Assembly: GCA_007644065.1 (NCBI GenBank)
Contig: VJWN01000007.1
Coordinates: 1,178,001 to 1,242,000 of the forward strand
Direction of reading: 5' to 3'
DNA from: Margaritispora aquatica
Taxonomy: Eukaryota; Ascomycota; Leotiomycetes; Helotiales; Discinellaceae
DNA length: 64,000 nt
The notes below the pieces were generated by a model. The model saw nothing but the letters and a program-made list of their open reading frames with translations. It searched no databases and was not told the origin of the DNA. Position 1 is the first letter of the stretch; every line of letters begins with the position of its first letter. The position numbers were made by a program, and so were the translations under genes. Below, in pieces: positions 25,301 to 54,817 of this stretch.

Positions 25301-26853
25301 ATGGATGGAACATGTCAGAAAACGGATCTTGGATCCCTTCCATTGGAATTATTCCAGCTTCTGATCGATAAAATGATAGCTGCTGTTGGATTACACAATA
25401 CAACCTCTCTTCGCCTCGTGAACAGTTGGTTGCCTTGAATTTGACTCATGACAGGCCTTTGCTAACTTACAAGCTAGAAACTTTTGACAACGAGGTCATC
25501 CAGTCCTTCTTTAGAGGGAAATACATGAAACCAAATACAGGTCGATTCGACAGTAGGATACCTCGTAACCTCTATGTCCGATTCATCCTTTGGCGGCTCC
25601 AGAGTCCACGAGGACAAAGAAGTATACTCAACGCTCATCTCGAAGAGTCCATCGGATTCTATGAGTCGCATCTCAGCCAGCAGAAGTCGAAAGAGGAAAT
25701 CTCAAGAGAAGTATTATTACAACATCTGATCCAAGCAGTAGCCGACCATGTGCCCATGAAGCTATTGCGATTGAGACCTCTGATGAGAGCTGTCAATATG
25801 CGTCGAGTCGCTCAAGGAGCTCTGGTCCTTGCTGCTTCAGTTGGGGATCTTGAGTCGGTGAAGTCTATCCTTGCGGAAGGCGCGTATGCAAACTATGGAA
25901 CGGTTCATTTTGCACGTCCCCTCGTTGCAGCATGCAGGTCAGGCAATCAAGACATGGTGGAACTCTTGCTTGATAGAGGAGCAAAAATAAGTGGTATCGC
26001 GAGATATAAACCAAATGATTATGCCATGACGCCTTTGCGAGCAGCTTGTGAAGGTGGCCATACACATATCGTACACCTTTTACTGCGGCATGTCAATGAA
26101 AGCTCAGATCGAGACTTCGATATTGATCTCGAAGGTGCTGTCGCTCTAAATGCCTGCATTCGTGCCAGACAGAATGATCTGTTCTTGGAACTGTACCATC
26201 AAACATGGAATGCGGATTTTGAAGCCGGAACAATAGCTGGGTATGTGGGTAACATCGAAGTTGTGAACATGCTCCTCGACGACATTGAACCCAATAAGAC
26301 CTTCGCATCCAAGCAAGGTCAAGCAGGCCGATTCCTGCATCTCGCTGCGCGAAACGGTCGCACGGAGCTTGTGAAGTCGCTTCTAGAGCGAAATATATAC
26401 AAGGCCGGACAGAGGACATCTCTGGGTCTTTACCTCGCTGTCGCATATCGGCGTCATGAGGCCGTGGACCTGCTTCTGCAGAATGGTGGCGTGATTGATG
26501 ACGAGAATTCTTTCATAGAGGTATACGAGGGATTCGAGAGGGAGTTTCGTGGTACGATGTTGGTCGTTGCTGCTGAGAACGATGATGTGGCGATGCTGAA
26601 GATTCTGGTGGATCATGGAGCGAACTTTGAGTACGAAGACCAAGGGCTTATGGCCATAAGAAAGGCAATGGAGATGGGTTGTAGGGACGCTTTCCAATTC
26701 TTGGTGGCCACCTATAAGAGGTTGAATAGTGGGAGACATCCGACAAGAAGAGGAAGGATTTTGACTATGGATGTTTTTGATGAGTTTCAAAGAAATTCGA
26801 GAGGTAGGCAGGTAGAGCCTGTCTATATTGCTAACGATCCGTCTAACTATTGA
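25301..26853 (+). CDS. ankyrin-repeat protein, probably frameshifted near its start
   Basis: The long frame (about 25420-26853) encodes ankyrin repeats, for example GALVLAASVGDLESVKSILA, RPLVAACRSGNQDMVELLLD, TPLRAACEGGHTHIVHLLL, RFLHLAARNGRTELVKSLLE and GTMLVVAAENDDVAMLKILV. An N-terminal piece in another frame starts at ATG 25301 and reads SLPLELFQLLIDKMIAAVG and TTSLRLVN, the F-box-like lead that precedes ankyrins in many fungal proteins. The two frames meet at about 25419-25428. No intron of acceptable length joins them: the only GT-AG option that keeps the conserved LRLVN is 26 bases. A missing copy of GAAC at 25420 would explain the break. The gene is therefore either a recent pseudogene or carries an assembly error. 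Ligand unknown. Confidence 0.75.
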
Positions 26854-32431: not shown

Positions 32432-35400
32432 ATGATCCATTTAAGCGCCAATAATCCCTTTGCCGAAGCTATCTTGTCCTTTATCGAGGAGCTTCGAGAT
32501 AATGAAGATCGCAAAAGTGTCTTCTACAAGGAGGTTGTCCAGGTAGCTTGTCGTTTGTATATGGCCGACGATGATGATGTGGACCAGAGCCTTCTATCAG
32601 CTACAGGCCTATCTGATTATATCTCTAACCTTCAGGTCGAGCACAGAAAGAAGAGTGGAATTCGGAAGGCCTTTTCGTTCGCTCAACCCCTTGTGGAGGG
32701 GTTGATGCAGTACACATCGGCAGTTGATGTCATGATTCAAGCAGACCCAACTGTTTCAGCATTAATCTATGGAGGTGCAAAATTAGTTCTCCAGGCAAGA
32801 TATCGTCTTACAGGAAATAGAATCTATATCACTAACTTCCTCTTAGCTTGCAAACGAGTATACCAAGTACTTTGAGGCCATTACGTTGATGATGGAAGAG
32901 ATTGGTGTTCAGCTACGATGCTTCCACATCTATACTCGCGAGTTCGCAGCAGACAAATACTTGAACGGTATCTTATGCAACTCATACAGAGATATTCTAT
33001 TGTTTTGGAGAGATGCTTCTAAGATCCTGAACCAACGTGGTAAAAGGTTCTTTGCTGGTGGTATATTGGCACCCTTCAAAGAAAGATATGGGAAATTCAA
33101 GTCAAAGCTGGACAAAAATGCTCAAAGTGTAGAAAGAATGACTCAAGCGCTTCATATTCAAGCTCAAGGAACTTTCAACAGATCTCAATCTCTTCAAGTC
33201 CAAGATTTGGCGAGGGTTCTTGAGCGAAGCAATTCGCCTCGACCACCTGACTATTCTGATTCAGACGCAGGTTCGTGGCTGTTGTCTCGCGAATTAGAAT
33301 ACATCTAATTTATTCTTAGGCACGCAGCATGACGAGATAAAGAAATGGGTATGTGGGGGGAGATTTTCTCGCATTGATCCCAAGCCAGATCTAGAGAGAC
33401 ATATATCATCCAGACATCCTGGAACCGCGAAATGGATCTTCCAGGACCCTGTCTACACCAAATGGCTGACATCAGGGGAGACATCTTCGGTGTGGCTGAA
33501 TGCTTCCCCTGGGTCTGGCAAAAGTGTATTGGCTTCCTCTGTCATTGAAAATATTCAATCGTCGCCAAGGAAGTCACAAAAGAATGTCATATATTTCTTC
33601 TGTCGCTTTGATGATGCTGAAAAATCCCACGCAGCTTCGGCGCTGCGATCCTTGTCTATCCAGGCACTTAAGCTTGTGAAATACATTCCAGATGAGCTTT
33701 ACGAGCTATATAAGGAAGAGTGCACAGGCGATGACTGCTACATCTCGACAGTTTCAATAGCTGAGAAGGTCTTAGGATTTCTCCTGAAACGTATAGATTA
33801 TGTCTCTGTGGTCATCGATGGCTTAGATGAATGCCATGGGGAGGCTATACTTGATTCGCTCATCAAATTACGAGATCAGAAATCTCATGGCATCACTAAA
33901 TGGTTTTGCACGAGCCGAAATGATGCTATTGTGCGCAAGAAGCTTGAAAATTCGAAATGGGATATCCTGACTGTCGCAAACAGCGTAGTCAAGAGTGATA
34001 TCCGAATGTTCCTGGAGGACAATTCTGATCTGGTGTGTGGTACTTGCGACCAGCTCGACAGGATCACCGAGTTGTCCGAAGGCAACTTCCTAATGATGCG
34101 GTTGACAATTGACCCTTTTCGCAATGAGGAATTAACGTGCTCCGAAGAGTTTGAAGACGCTTTGGATACTTTCCAGCCTGAGCTTGGCAAATGTTGGTAC
34201 AGAAGTCTTCAGAGACTATTACAACGGAGCGAGCAGATCCAAGAGCTTGCACAGTAAGCACATGCCAACACTCTATTCACACATTTTACTCATTCGTATG
34301 TCTAGGATGATTTTCCTGGCTGTCATTCTTGCGGTACAGCCAATGACTTTTAACGAGCTCATTGAACTGCTCTCTGTCAAACTGGGAGAGGAACCTTCTT
34401 CACGAAGGCGGAGAACAAGATCAGTGATTCTATCAGCATGTTCACCCTTTGTTGAAGTTGACTACGACAAAGACTTTGTCAATCCAACACTGAGACTTGT
34501 GCACAAATCAATAGGAGATTTTCTCTTTCAGGATCCGATAGAGACAGATTTTGTGACCAAGGACTGCTATAAGTTCTTTGTTCAATATGAGCAGGGACAT
34601 GTAGAAATGGGAAGGCGGTGTCTCTCCTATCTCTCTTACAACCGGTATCGAGACTTTTCGGATGTCACACTATCAGAGAATGCAGAGCATGGACTACTCA
34701 AGTATGCGTCGATATATTGGTACAAGCACATTGAATATGGTGGTCGAAACAAGGTGACATTTGAGATAGTCAGAGATTTCATGAAATCACCAAACTTCTG
34801 GACATGTATCAGAGTGCAAGCAAAATATGCACCACATACCTTTGCAAAAATGGCCTACAAGCTCGGCACCGACAGCTACATAATGGCATCTGGAAAGCAG
34901 ATCTCAAATCGAGATGAAGTTTATTATGCAGATGCTCTACCATCATGGCTCAATGAGTACGACAACGAAGGCGACAATCTTATCTGGGGCTACCATATGT
35001 TTGTCAGGGAATGGGGTGATGTTTTGGTGAAACATCCTAGCCAAGTACAACCCTACTTCGCAAAAGTACTTGGAGATCGTGGCTTCTGGTGGATAGGTAA
35101 CGAGAAGAGTACTGAAACAAAAGTCACAATACAGGACTCTGGTGAGGAACTCAAAAGTACCTTTGGCATCAAGGATCTTGAATCTGGCTGCTCACCTGGC
35201 TGGCAATTTCACGATCGCTTATTAAAAAGTATCCAATCACCGAAAAGAGAGCCACTCTCGGAATATGTCACGAACACTATCGCGAAAGCCCATGGCGAGT
35301 GGGATCTTTTTAGTCAAACTACCGTGATAGGAATGAACACGGCTACCACAGCATATCGTTTTAGGTCCTCAGTGTGTGATTGCGAAGAAGAAGTCGACGA

Positions 35401-50336: not shown

Positions 50337-51632
50337 TTAGATGGACATCAGTGGCTCCTCAGTCTTGGAGGTCATCGCATCTGCGATAGGGGTTGACTTG
50401 AACTCCTCCTTGGGTGCGACTGGGAAATCCTCGGTCTTGTATGCAGAGACATTCTCCTTCTCGACCTTGACTGGGGCAGCCTTTTGAAGGGTTGGGGAGA
50501 CAGAGCGTCCACGGGCGTTTCCAATCATCTCTTGAGCCTTAGCAGAGTAATCTCCAACCAAAGACTTTGTGTTTTCGGTAACAGCAGAAGCATGCTGGCT
50601 AGCGAGAGCCTTGACCTGCTCAGTTTGTTGACCCACGATCTCAGAAACATTCTTGATTTGCTCATCGATAAACTCCTTGTTGGTGGTGTAGATCAATGGC
50701 ACGCCAAAGAGAACGGTGTTGGCAATAAGGCAAAGACCCCAGAATGGAACAACCTTAATCAGATAGTAGGAGAAGAAGGCAGCGAAAAGAGCCTGCACGA
50801 TAAATTAGCTTTCGAATTCAAGTGGGGATTAGCGAACATACAGCAGTGGATGCAAGAAGGTTCTCTGCAAAGACGATTTGCTGAGCCTCGATGACGAAGA
50901 AGTTGATAAGCTCATGGACGTCACCAATAAACGAGTTAATGGTCTCCTTAGAAACTGTGTAGTATTTCCTTGGGCGAATTTGGGTGGTAAGTCCATGGGA
51001 GAGAACGGCCTTTCCGACAGCTTCAGCGAGGACAGTGATGGCCAGGATCATGTATGTAGCTTTAAATGTGTATCGAATGATATCAAGGTATCTAGCAGCG
51101 AAGATGAACAGAACAGTGGAAAGGTAGGCAATTCCGGAGGCTCTTGGGTGCTCCCATGACAGGAGGCTGTAGAAGAACGAGTGGTATTGGGTCAGAGGCT
51201 GTCCAGTAGCTGCGGGCGTCATAGGAGTGGTCTTGGCCGCTGCGAGACCCGAGAATTCGGCTGAGGTCTTTGCATGTTGGTCCTTGAGGTTATCCGCAAC
51301 GGGTCCTACATCATGATCATCAGCACTGACCCCTTCTGAATTTTCTCTCAAGATAAGGATATAAACGTACCGTTGGCGAAGCTTTGTGTGATGGGGTGGT
51401 TCTTGACTGTGTCTGCGGCAGAAGAGGCACCTAGATATTCTGTCAGTTGAGATTTGGGGGAGCTGTGGAGCTGCGAATCCTGTTTCAAATGTTAGAGGCA
51501 GCTTTGATAGCAAAATTTGAAGTTGGCACAAACCTAACCGTTGACTATAGAAGTCTTTGCATTCTCAATGCCATTTGGAGCATCTTTCTCGATGGAAGGA
51601 ACCACAGTATCGTGGGCGGTGAAGTCGGACAT
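50337..51632 (-). CDS. RTN1: reticulon-domain ER membrane protein
   Basis: Reticulons bend ER tubules with two hydrophobic hairpins. The ATG at 51632 opens MSDFTAHDTVVPSIEKDAPN. Three short introns lie in the N-terminal third and one near 50795-50835. The reticulon homology domain starts at SFFYSLLSWEHPRASGIAYL with a first hairpin (LSTVLFIFAARYLDIIRY to ATYMILAITVLAEAVGK), a loop with VHELINFFVIEAQQIVFAEN, and a second hairpin (ALFAAFFSYYLIKVVPFWGL, CLIANTVLFGVPLIYTTNKE). The C-terminal 110 residues are cytosolic, with a helical QQTEQVKALASQHASAV segment. Order, spacing and the LIYTTNKEFID motif match fungal Rtn1. Confidence 0.93.
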
Positions 51633-53117
51633 GTTGAATAGCTTCAATCAAGTAATTCGATTGGGTGATGTGATGTAGTGTTTGGCAGATGGTGAAAGCA
51701 CAAGAGTCTGCGAAATGGATGTTGGAGTTGTTTTTTGTTTGAAGAATCTGCAGGAAGAAAAGGTTGTGAAGAAGTGTGAAGTTGAGGATTTGTTTTTTTT
51801 TTTCGAAGAAGTGTTGCCGGATTGGATGTTGACGACGGATTCAAGAATGGAAGTTGGGTTCTGGGTTTTTGATGGTTTCCAGGTTGGGTGGATTTTGGTG
51901 GTACAATTCAATTGCACATGAAGGAAGGTGCGACCTTGCTGGGGGGGGGGGGGGGTTAGTAAGGTAGCTTGAATAGGTTTAGCGTCGAGGCACGCGAGCG
52001 ATTCTTTTCTTGGTTCTGGCAATCAAACTGGTTCAAAACTGGCCGGAAGTGGTCCAAACTGCTGTGAGCCACACCGAATTTATCACTGAGTGGCTGAACA
52101 GGCGATAAATGACGTTGACGAGGAACTTTCTAGCTTAGGATCTTGGATCGTAATACTCAGCTCAGGTTTGGTTCAAACAAACAAACAACACAAAAATGAT
52201 TCCTGCCGCTTTCCAGCTTTTGCTTCTTTTATAGCAGGATTCAGACATAGCCTTATGACGCATCTTTTGGAACATTCTCTACCGTGTTCTCTTCTTGAAC
52301 TCAAGACACATTCGCACCCGAGTTCGCGATTTATTTACTTTGGATATTTTGGCATGTGATCGCGTCAGGCAGAAGTGTTTGTCTGTTGTTCGATCACTGA
52401 TCACGATCATTTTCCAACATCTGGTGATGAAACCCCCATTGCTACTATATTGAGTTACTTCTTCCAGTTGGATGAGGCCATCGTGACACCTATTCGTTTT
52501 CGAGATCGGGTGCAGGTGGAGATGCAGAAAGGAGGTGTTGGTTGCAGAAATGGGATGGGGGAGCTTGGTAGACCTTACCAATGATAAGCCCAACAGCTTG
52601 CATTGCCAGCCAACCAAGCCAACCAACCAGCTGTAGAATTTATAAGTAGGTTTAGTTATTAATGCTATTTGGAGATGGGTATTGATGTACTGGTAGGGCG
52701 AAGACAGATTGAGCCATTTATACATGAACGCAGATTAGTATAACGCCAAGAATCAGTATGTTTCAGCCAATACAGGGCATCAGTTTGACTTTGATAACTA
52801 TTGATAGTTCAGAAGTCTGAAGGCAAAAGGAATAAAGTAGAGATTCGTTTAGTACTTAAACTACCTCTCTCCAAGATTTCAAATATCTTCAAACACGCCT
52901 ATTGGATTATATTTCTCAAATCCCTTTCGAATATTATCGTCAATGCATTTCAAGAATTCTATCTAGCTTCAAATATATAACTGACAGTGAGCTGTGGCTG
53001 TGAGGATATCAAGGTATACCTAGGTACTTACCCCTCGATGGAAAATGCAGCAGTCACGTGATGATACATCGTGGTCTTGATATAATAACATTGCAACTAC
53101 CAAAATATATTCAAAAT
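51633..53117. other. intergenic, 1.5 kb, with G15 run
   Basis: Promoter side of the reticulon gene, then a stretch up to the tRNA gene. It contains a G15 homopolymer (51941-51955) and AT-rich DNA; no gene is recognised. Confidence 0.45.
51941..51955. repeat. G15 homopolymer
   Basis: Fifteen consecutive G residues upstream of the reticulon gene. Confidence 0.85.
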
Positions 53118-53243
53118 GGCCTGCTGGCCCAATGGTAAGGCGCTTGACTACGAATCAAGAGATTGCAGGGTAAGCTTTACAACCGTCTTCTTCCTAGCGA
53201 ACCAATAACTAACAAGCGCCCAGTTCGAGCCCTGCGTAGGTCA
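53118..53243 (+). tRNA. tRNA-Arg(ACG) interrupted in the T arm by a spliceosomal-type intron
   Basis: Exon parts are 53118-53169 and 53224-53243, 72 bases when joined. Acceptor GGCCTGC pairs with GTAGGTC (two G-U pairs) and is followed by discriminator A. The D arm has GCC/GGC around AATGGTAA. The anticodon stem CTTGA/TCAAG encloses loop CTACGAA with anticodon ACG at 53150-53152. The variable loop is AGATT. The T stem GCAGG (53165-53169) pairs with CCTGC (53231-53235) and the T loop is TTCGAGC. The body fits a cytosolic arginine tRNA that would read CGN codons after A34-to-inosine editing. The 54 bases at 53170-53223 lie between positions 53 and 54. An A-box-like TGGCCCAATGG precedes and a T9 run follows. 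It may be a real split gene or an inactivated copy; processing cannot be judged from sequence. Confidence 0.85.
53170..53223 (+). other. 54-base spliceosomal-type intron inside the tRNA gene
   Basis: Begins GTAAGC, has CTAAC at 53209-53213 with the branch A 11 bases from the acceptor, a pyrimidine-rich patch (TCTTCTTCC) and ends CCCAG. All of these match short spliceosomal introns of the protein genes in this window. Removal restores GCAGGTTCGAGCCCTGC exactly; the boundary can slide by one base without changing the product. I see no obvious bulge-helix-bulge pairing, but that needs folding. Confidence 0.75.
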
Positions 53244-53264
53244 GCAACAGTGCGATAGCATACC

Positions 53265-53273
53265 TTTTTTTTT
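53265..53273 (+). terminator. T9 run, likely RNA polymerase III terminator
   Basis: Nine consecutive T residues 21 bases after the tRNA 3' end, followed by GC and T5. Confidence 0.7.
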
Positions 53274-53341
53274 GCTTTTTCATCAAGCAGAGAAGCTTAT
53301 CTTTTGCAGACATGAAATGTGATCAATGTTGACTTTCGAAG

Positions 53342-53420
53342 TGTGGTGGGGTGTCGGCTCGGTAAACCCGGGTTCGAAAGAAGCGAGCTACCCGATGTTC
53401 AACCCCTCACATTTTTTTTG
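53342..53420 (+). ncRNA. possible small structured RNA (hairpin with T-tail)
   Basis: GCTCG (53357-53361) pairs with CGAGC (53384-53388), TCG (53354-53356) with CGA (53393-53395), and GGGG (53348-53351) with CCCC (53403-53406). The loop carries the palindrome AACCCGGGTT and a B-box-like GGTTCGAAA. A T8 run follows at 53412-53419. This could be a Pol III transcript or a decayed tRNA-derived element; no family is recognised. Confidence 0.25.
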
Positions 53421-54817
53421 GAGGGGTCATTTCTCTTTGTCTGATCCATTTGAAACGAATTCATGGCTTGGAGTTTTGGACTGACTTGAGAAATGGTTCT
53501 TAAAAAGAATTAATACGCGAGTAATAATTGAATAATCTTGATCAGATACGTCTTCTTAACTAGATACTCTTTACCGGAGTTCCTATGGATGAAATTTATT
53601 TTCGTGCTACATTTTCATCAAGCCCTTACTAATTAATATTGTCTGTATTGTGTGCTTACTTTTATTTGTCACCTCTATTCATTTTAGTGACATTCACTAA
53701 CACGCAAGCGTCGCTATTATAATCCGTATTGTTTCCATTATACATGGGCAAGTAGAAACCTAAATCAGCTGGCATGCGGTTCAAGATTGACCGAGTGCAG
53801 GGCTTTCGAATTTGCTACTGAGATTTTAGGTCACTGAGTTTTGAATCGCAAGATCAGAAAGTCCTTAAAAAGAAGCATGTGATACTCACATTACGATGCT
53901 TGCAGGCTTCCTCTCTCTCTCTTGGCCAAAATCACGAGAAAGTGACTTCAGATCATAGGTAATGTGTGAATCATATCCAAATGGGATGAGAACATTTCTC
54001 AAACAAGTCTCACTGCACTTCTTCGCTTCATCACTTATCATCATACCAGCAGCGAGAACGTATAAGTCATGAGTACGTCTTACTGCGATCACAAACTTTA
54101 GCACCGTCGGTAATGACGTGGATACGTGATCTTGAATAATACATGCATTTATTTGAGCATTCGCTCGCCGAAGTCTGGATGAAGTATTTATAGGGTACAT
54201 CTTAAGTTCTTGCCTCTGATTTCCAATCCAAAGTCTCAACCATCCAATCCCAAGAAATCTGATCGACCACTGTTTAGAACTCATCAAAATCACTCAAGTC
54301 TCAAACAGAAAACGCCCTCGCAAGTCCATCCAGTGACAAAAATATATCTCGAATCACAACCATGTGTACCTTCTCAATCATCGAGTTTCGTTGTGGCGAT
54401 CAGCTTAGCCGTTTGGAACACCGTTGTGTCTAGAGATGGTCCACGCATCGAAGACTTTTGCCCAGTTCAAATAGATTCTACAATCCTTGTTTTCCAAGCG
54501 TGCGATATCTGCTAATGGAACCTTTGGAATAGACAGATTTCAACGACCAGGTCTCATGGCAAAGGCAAGAAAAGAGAAGTGGCAAGCTTGATAACGAGCC
54601 TTTTGGAAACAACAGGTGGGGCGTATTATGGATGTCTTGGTCTTTTCACTCTGGATTTCTTACCCGCTAAAATGGCTAGCTACCTTAGTGCATGTATGCA
54701 AAATTCGTCCTTTGGATATCTTTCGTTAGCCCAGATGCGTAGTGCAAGCTGTTTCCAACATTGCAACAGAGTAGACCAGACAGAGAAGAAGGGTTGGCAA
54801 AGTTGATTGATTCATGA

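Follow-up and report, generated by a model that had tools for sequence, protein, structure and literature searches.

Probable spliceosomal introns in nuclear tRNA genes of the fungus Margaritispora aquatica

Introduction

Can a tRNA gene be interrupted by an intron of the kind that the spliceosome removes? Textbooks keep the mRNA-splicing machine separate from tRNA processing, and the locus considered here, a tRNA-Arg(ACG) gene within a 64,000-nt stretch of genomic DNA (the window), raises the question of whether the two can meet. An earlier note on this DNA had read the gene as one entered by a spliceosomal intron. From the comparisons below, we consider it very probable that spliceosomal (U2-type, GT-AG) introns lie in working nuclear tRNA genes of this fungus, and that they would be removed by the spliceosome from Pol III pre-tRNAs.

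Results

A tRNA-Arg(ACG) gene that folds only without its insert

The locus is made up of the following features.

53118..53169, forward strand: tRNA-Arg(ACG) exon 1 (tRNA positions 1-53; A box and anticodon ACG), 52 nt
53170..53223, forward strand: GT-AG intron at 53/54, 54 nt, with 5' splice site GTAAGC, a branch-like CTAAC and 3' end CCCAG
53209..53213, forward strand: the branch-point-like CTAAC; its A at 53212 is base 12 counting back from the last intron base
53222..53232, forward strand: B box AGTTCGAGCCC in genomic DNA, made of the terminal AG of the intron and exon 2
53224..53243, forward strand: tRNA-Arg(ACG) exon 2 (T loop, 3' T stem, 3' acceptor strand, discriminator A)
53265..53273, forward strand: T9 run, Pol III terminator-like, downstream of the tRNA gene

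The claim that a cloverleaf can be drawn at 53118-53243 only without the 54-nt insert was borne out: the joined 72 nt are named tRNA-Arg(acg) by ARAGORN, which finds no tRNA in the genomic window. Given its flanks, the joined sequence is called in ARAGORN runs that permit introns and missed in the default run. The Rfam tRNA model found nothing in the window at its cut-off, a loose threshold yielding a partial match of 26.3 bits against a cut-off of 29. Covariance-model scoring of the locus, suggested in the earlier note as a check, agreed with its reading: a model of nuclear tRNAs from this genome covers exactly 53118-53243 and skips the insert, at 57.4 bits, a score that is partly circular because the joined sequence is one of the model's 11 training rows. 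This was the model's single match in the window at E values up to 10.

When the letters of the insert at 53170-53223 were shuffled, the full signal (GT[AGT]NG, then CTRA[CTA] with its A 9-17 nt from the end, then YAG) arose in 0 of 20000 trials. As the motif was defined after this case had been seen, its replication at one site in all five Arg(ACG) genes found and in other tRNAs is the stronger evidence. A group I or II self-splicing intron was considered and rejected, the inserts measuring merely 48-61 nt against a catalytic core of hundreds of bases; across the window Rfam gave no match that reached its gathering threshold, while a search of positions 53000-53500 at E values up to 5 gave just the tRNA and a chance-level CRISPR repeat match.

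Five Arg(ACG) genes, each with an insert

With the locus as query, the 42.4-Mb genome (49 contigs) returned five places, each a tRNA-Arg(ACG) gene that has an insert at 53/54. A search with the joined tRNA returned just these five split genes, and no contiguous Arg(ACG) was found in the 42.4 Mb. Where the earlier note had allowed for intact copies elsewhere and decay of this one, the search gave five of five copies with the insert, none intact, and exons that stay 97-100% identical. The absence of intact copies is not proof, since genome searches score the best candidates only and copy counts are lower bounds.

The five introns are 54, 55, 57, 61 and 54 nt long and carry, in the order of those lengths, CTAAC, CTAAC, CTGAT, CTAAC and CTAAA close to their ends, which read CAG in one and TAG in four. 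Their first eight bases, GTAAGCTT (53170-53177 in the window), do not vary among the five copies, a match that runs two bases further than U1 pairing requires. This identity may stem from shared descent or from pairing with the 3' splice site: the AGCT of GTAAGCTT is predicted to pair with AGTT at the 3' splice site with a probability of 0.69-0.83 in the copy on contig C14, and of 0-0.18 in the other four.

Interrupted genes for other tRNAs

The Arg(ACG) family does not stand alone. In total, we found 11 intron-bearing tRNA genes, covering five isoacceptors and four positions (6/7, 30/31, 53/54 and 60/61), the further cases being these.

Lys(CTT), 53/54: insert in 2 of the 6 copies found
Gln(TTG), 6/7: insert in 2 of the 2 copies found, with different intron interiors
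Arg(CCT), G000:C23:1168604-1168738 (L062), 30/31: insert in the 1 copy found
Lys(TTT), L061, 60/61: insert in one copy

One Gln(TTG) gene and the Arg(CCT) and Lys(TTT) cases came from weak matches to the tRNA model, and a Gln(TTG) query then brought up the second Gln(TTG) gene. In the other four of the six Lys(CTT) copies found, the T arm is uninterrupted at the exact predicted junction, so that here the empty site is seen directly, and a Gln(CTG) sister gene is unsplit at exactly the junction predicted from Gln(TTG). Isoacceptor queries found no intact Gln(TTG) or Arg(CCT) in the 42.4-Mb genome. The Gln(TTG) 5' exon is merely 6 nt plus the leader. We also read a 37/38 intron in both Lys(CTT) carriers, both Gln(TTG) genes and Arg(CCT); of the four of these run through ARAGORN (both Lys(CTT) genes, one Gln(TTG) gene and Arg(CCT)), it was marked in three, the Lys(CTT) copy on C49 being called as a tRNA without an intron. 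Introns at 37/38 are numerous among the tRNA genes of this genome.

The Lys(TTT) gene L061 is the weakest of the set and may be decaying, given that the final two bases of its B box are lost and its D stem has a mismatch, and that another gene (L036, labelled Stop(tta) by ARAGORN) reads as Lys(TTT) without an insert. A further gene at G000:C48:685604-685748 resembles a Cys tRNA with a 72-nt intron; its anticodon loop CTTCATA gives UCA in the usual register, ARAGORN names it Met(cat), and it is possibly a UGA reader or a decayed Cys copy.

As to coverage, the Rfam tRNA search of the genome scored 62 of 1722 candidates, and its tRNA list is incomplete. The 11 interrupted genes were seen among 51 nuclear tRNA genes, a biased sample composed of 46 Rfam rows off contig C38 and five genes from other queries; the 21 of 67 Rfam tRNA rows that lie on C38 were dropped. 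This contig (G000:C38, 42.6 kb) is rich in organelle-type tRNA genes, some sets of which occur twice about 33.7 kb apart, and is probably the mitochondrial genome, assembled past the start of the circle.

The genome was also scanned with sequence patterns. The pattern GTAAGCTN{20,50}AGTTCGANYCC had five matches, all in tRNA genes (four Arg(ACG), one Lys(CTT)), and its reversed-pattern control had one; GTAAGN{27,57}YAGTTCRANYCC had 11, seven of them in tRNA genes (five Arg(ACG), two Lys(CTT)) and four not, as judged by eye, with nine for the control. Genome scans with GTATG and GTGAG gave two and four matches, none in a tRNA gene, and three for the control in each case. CTAACN{4,14}AGTTYRANNCC was not enriched (13 matches versus 23 for the reversed control); of the seven of these 13 that were read, five are known tRNA cases and two show no tRNA, one of them looking like an mRNA intron. 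No match to the exact 24-mer of the exon-intron junction turned up in viral and prokaryotic DNA collections, in which matches were hardly to be expected.

Selection on the interrupted genes

Could the interrupted genes be dead or dying, with translation relying on intact copies that the search missed? A eukaryotic tRNA gene with an insertion in its D or T arm is as a rule regarded as a pseudogene, according to a review (PMC4090602), and the four insert-free copies of Lys(CTT), the weakened B box and D-stem mismatch of L061 and the status of our genome-search counts as lower bounds all fit such a view. However, the search of the 42.4 Mb for intact copies came up empty for Arg(ACG), Gln(TTG) and Arg(CCT), though a like query did find insert-free Lys(CTT), and dead copies would drift throughout, whereas here the exons are near identical while introns and flanks have diverged. 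Exon 1 of the window gene is identical in three of the other four Arg(ACG) copies and 98% identical in the fourth, and across the five copies exons are pairwise 97-100% identical; intron interiors have identities of 0.45-0.76 (mean 0.61, versus 0.59 for shuffled introns), and flanks average 0.63 over 60 nt upstream and 0.68 downstream. Between the two Gln(TTG) genes identity is 1.00 in the exons (38 bases compared), 0.57 in the intron and 0.79 downstream, and between the two Lys(CTT) carriers 1.00 (36 bases compared), 0.62 and 0.76, respectively. With exons kept and intron middles resembling shuffled sequence, selection keeps the tRNA parts and the intron ends, with the insert in place. We therefore regard the dead-copy explanation as very unlikely, and working genes that need their introns removed as the better account.

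Intron anatomy and comparison with mRNA introns

All 13 introns described here (11 in tRNA genes, two in the U6 genes below) start with GT and end with YAG. The tRNA introns are 48-61 nt long, with a branch-like A 11-13 nt from the end; 10 of the 11 have CTRAY, the Arg(ACG) copy on C14 having CTAAA, and the 5' splice site of Arg(CCT) is imperfect (GTTAGA). The 11 tRNA introns match the U1-pairing consensus CAGGTAAGT at 5-7 of 9 positions, and 19 candidate mRNA introns of the window match it at 4-8. Under letter shuffles, the full set of signals, the limits of which were set after the first cases had been seen, arose 0-2 times in 20000 per intron across 12 introns (10 tRNA, two U6).

The same grammar had been claimed for the mRNA introns of the window, and indeed the 19 candidates are 49-99 nt long with GTRNG and CTRAY, a comparison that is partly circular because the scan selected on the same motif; in 15 of them the A is 10-16 nt, and in the other four 21-24 nt, from the end. 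One of these candidates, at 50793-50841 on the minus strand, ends a reticulon-domain exon.

The positions of the inserts invite another explanation, namely that they are non-canonical introns cut by the tRNA splicing endonuclease at a bulge-helix-bulge. Both 53/54 and 30/31 are known intron positions in archaea, and some eukaryotes have non-canonical introns; in archaea and Cyanidioschyzon merolae these are tied to the bulge-helix-bulge and the endonuclease, according to the same review (PMC4090602). Considering the many 37/38 introns of this genome, the enzyme is also in use here. Yet introns of the endonuclease depend on structure and not on GT-AG (PMC13149111), whereas GT, YAG and CTRA[CTA] at one distance recur in 11 of 11 of our inserts, which lie off the canonical 37/38, at 6/7, 30/31, 53/54 and 60/61. 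The expected structure is likewise wanting: in the one register tried, 1-2 of 4 bulge-helix-bulge pairs are possible in 10 tRNA introns (a noisy measure, since chance alone gives the two U6 introns 3 of 4), the predicted pairing probability is 0.00 in all seven precursors of 53/54 type, and the Arg(ACG) folds have no common helix inside the introns. Endonuclease cleavage of these inserts thus seems highly improbable to us, and spliceosomal removal fits their signals.

After joining, ARAGORN names a tRNA with the expected anticodon in 10 of the 10 genes run. In their genomic forms, eight of the 10 give nothing and two are misread, in keeping with the earlier expectation that ordinary finders would miss such genes. 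One misread is an Arg(ACG) copy given a misplaced intron; the other is Arg(CCT), named Ser(AGA) when unspliced because its spliceosomal-type intron adjoins the anticodon.

Pol III signals and the 53/54 site

A run of T5 or longer starts 8-37 nt past the 3' end marker in 11 of 11 intron-bearing tRNA genes, and none of the 11 introns holds a T-run over four (ten computed, the eleventh by eye), as a Pol III transcript would need. A TATA-like motif lies within 60 nt upstream of five of the 11.

It is conceivable that the insert stays, the unspliced transcript or a Pol II read-through product having another role. In its favour is only the indirect point that most genomic forms are not tRNA-like to ARAGORN; the T-runs after all 11 genes, the full cloverleaf pairing of the joined exons and the failure to find any other Arg(ACG) for decoding speak against it and leave it exceedingly unlikely.

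At 53/54, the terminal AG of the intron together with exon TTCGANCCC gives AGTTCGANCCC, a form of the B box; the AGTTCRA form occurs as well in tRNAs of this genome whose T arm is uninterrupted, such as Ile and eMet. An AG-ending intron completes the B box and can thus occupy 53/54 without breaking the internal promoter, and we infer that this is why two isoacceptors share the site.

Introns in the U6 genes

The U6 snRNA is also a Pol III RNA. A search that scored 47 of 2801 candidates found at least two U6 genes over the cut-off, at G000:C48:1672708-1672815 and G000:C23:2147951-2148056 (L098 and L099), each split by a GT-AG intron (53 and 50 nt) whose site differs between the two. With the introns removed, the two are identical over 102 nt, so each displays the empty site of the other. 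The U6 gene of fission yeast holds a spliced mRNA-type intron thought to derive from reverse splicing, according to PMC10484740. Given this published intron and the fact that both U6 genes found are split here, short Pol III RNAs are very likely being processed by the spliceosome of this fungus already.

Discussion

Taken together, the insert in five of five Arg(ACG) genes, the identity of their exons, the Pol III-type T-runs and the recurrence in five isoacceptors and U6 support the claim that a spliceosomal intron has entered a tRNA gene. As expected of functional genes, the Arg(ACG) copies offer an ACG cloverleaf after joining, conserved exons and a Pol III-type terminator; as expected of U2-type introns, their inserts have GT...AG with a 5' splice site matching U1 and a branch motif at the distance usual in the host.

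We posit that Pol III would transcribe each gene through its A box, its B box (which the intron AG completes at 53/54) and the downstream T-run, and that the spliceosome would then excise the 48-61 nt intron by means of the 5' splice site, the CTRAY branch point and the YAG acceptor, so that a normal cloverleaf is left. Where a 37/38 intron co-occurs, the tRNA endonuclease and ligase would remove it, such that one tRNA would pass through two splicing systems. As for origin, RNAs that come into contact with the spliceosome could have gained spliced-out introns through reverse splicing. We infer from sequence the Pol III transcription, the spliceosomal removal, the order of steps relative to RNase P, RNase Z and the tRNA endonuclease, and the gain by reverse splicing. 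The T stem spans the insert in four of the five predicted Arg(ACG) folds, with one or two bases from the start of the intron drawn into the pairing; the 5' splice site may for this reason be partly hidden.

A broader reading, which we hold to be somewhat favoured as a whole, would have the decoding of CGU, CGC and CGA (by Arg(ACG)) and of CAA (by Gln(TTG)) depend wholly on the spliceosome, some tRNAs pass through two splicing machines in turn, introns still be entering tRNA and U6 genes, and 53/54 be preferred as a site where an AG-ending intron rebuilds the B box.

How does this compare with known systems? Spliceosomal introns are present in the rRNA genes of lichen-forming ascomycetes, which are alike in that the host is a structural non-coding RNA, and unlike in that it is a large RNA and a Pol I transcript. 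Canonical eukaryotic introns at 37/38, removed by the TSEN endonuclease and ligase, lie in nuclear tRNA genes as well and co-occur with ours in the same genes; however, the inserts described here lie at other positions, carry GT-branch-AG signals and yielded no structural cleavage motif. Closest in kind are the mRNA-type introns of Schizosaccharomyces pombe U6, where a spliceosomal intron sits in a short Pol III RNA that needs splicing (PMC10484740); here, in contrast, the host is a tightly folded tRNA that has an internal promoter and a splicing system of its own, and several isoacceptors are affected at four positions. The introns of archaea, nucleomorphs and C. merolae share positions outside 37/38 (53/54 and 30/31 in archaea) and the presence of more than one per gene, those of the Guillardia nucleomorph being 3-24 nt long (PMC4090602). 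They differ from ours, in which the bulge-helix-bulge was not found in the one register tried and spliceosomal signals are present. The tRNAscan-SE 2.0 paper gives one intron as the limit for a eukaryotic tRNA gene (PMC8450103).

The earlier note knew of no established precedent. Searches of open PMC papers likewise brought up no account of a tRNA gene with a spliceosomal intron; an earlier report is possible, since most subscription papers and preprints fall outside that collection. U6 is a known case of a Pol III RNA with spliceosomal introns, and the tRNA as host appears to be new.

If these genes work as proposed, the tRNA supply of at least one fungus would depend on the spliceosome, and should the broader reading above be true, translation and mRNA splicing would be directly coupled. 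It would then also be possible to study intron gain into structured Pol III RNAs within one genome, with carrier and non-carrier paralogues together, and to ask directly whether the spliceosome can act on a pre-tRNA that is short and folded and has an exon of just 6 nt. For annotation, tRNA finders can miss or misname such genes, and their annotation may carry wrong isotypes.

Other features of the window

About 100 nt past the tRNA, 53335-53425 holds a B-box-like GGGTTCGAAAG and a T8 run; this segment folds no better than its shuffles (z -0.94) and has no Rfam match at E values up to 5. The nearest relatives of the reticulon exon are metagenomic proteins and, among named organisms, those of Leptodophora, Oculimacula and Mollisiaceae, which points to a probably helotialean host. 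Elsewhere in the window, a NACHT/NPHP3_N exon at 33490-34257 and an ankyrin-repeat ORF at 25426-26853 resemble fungal NLR-type proteins.
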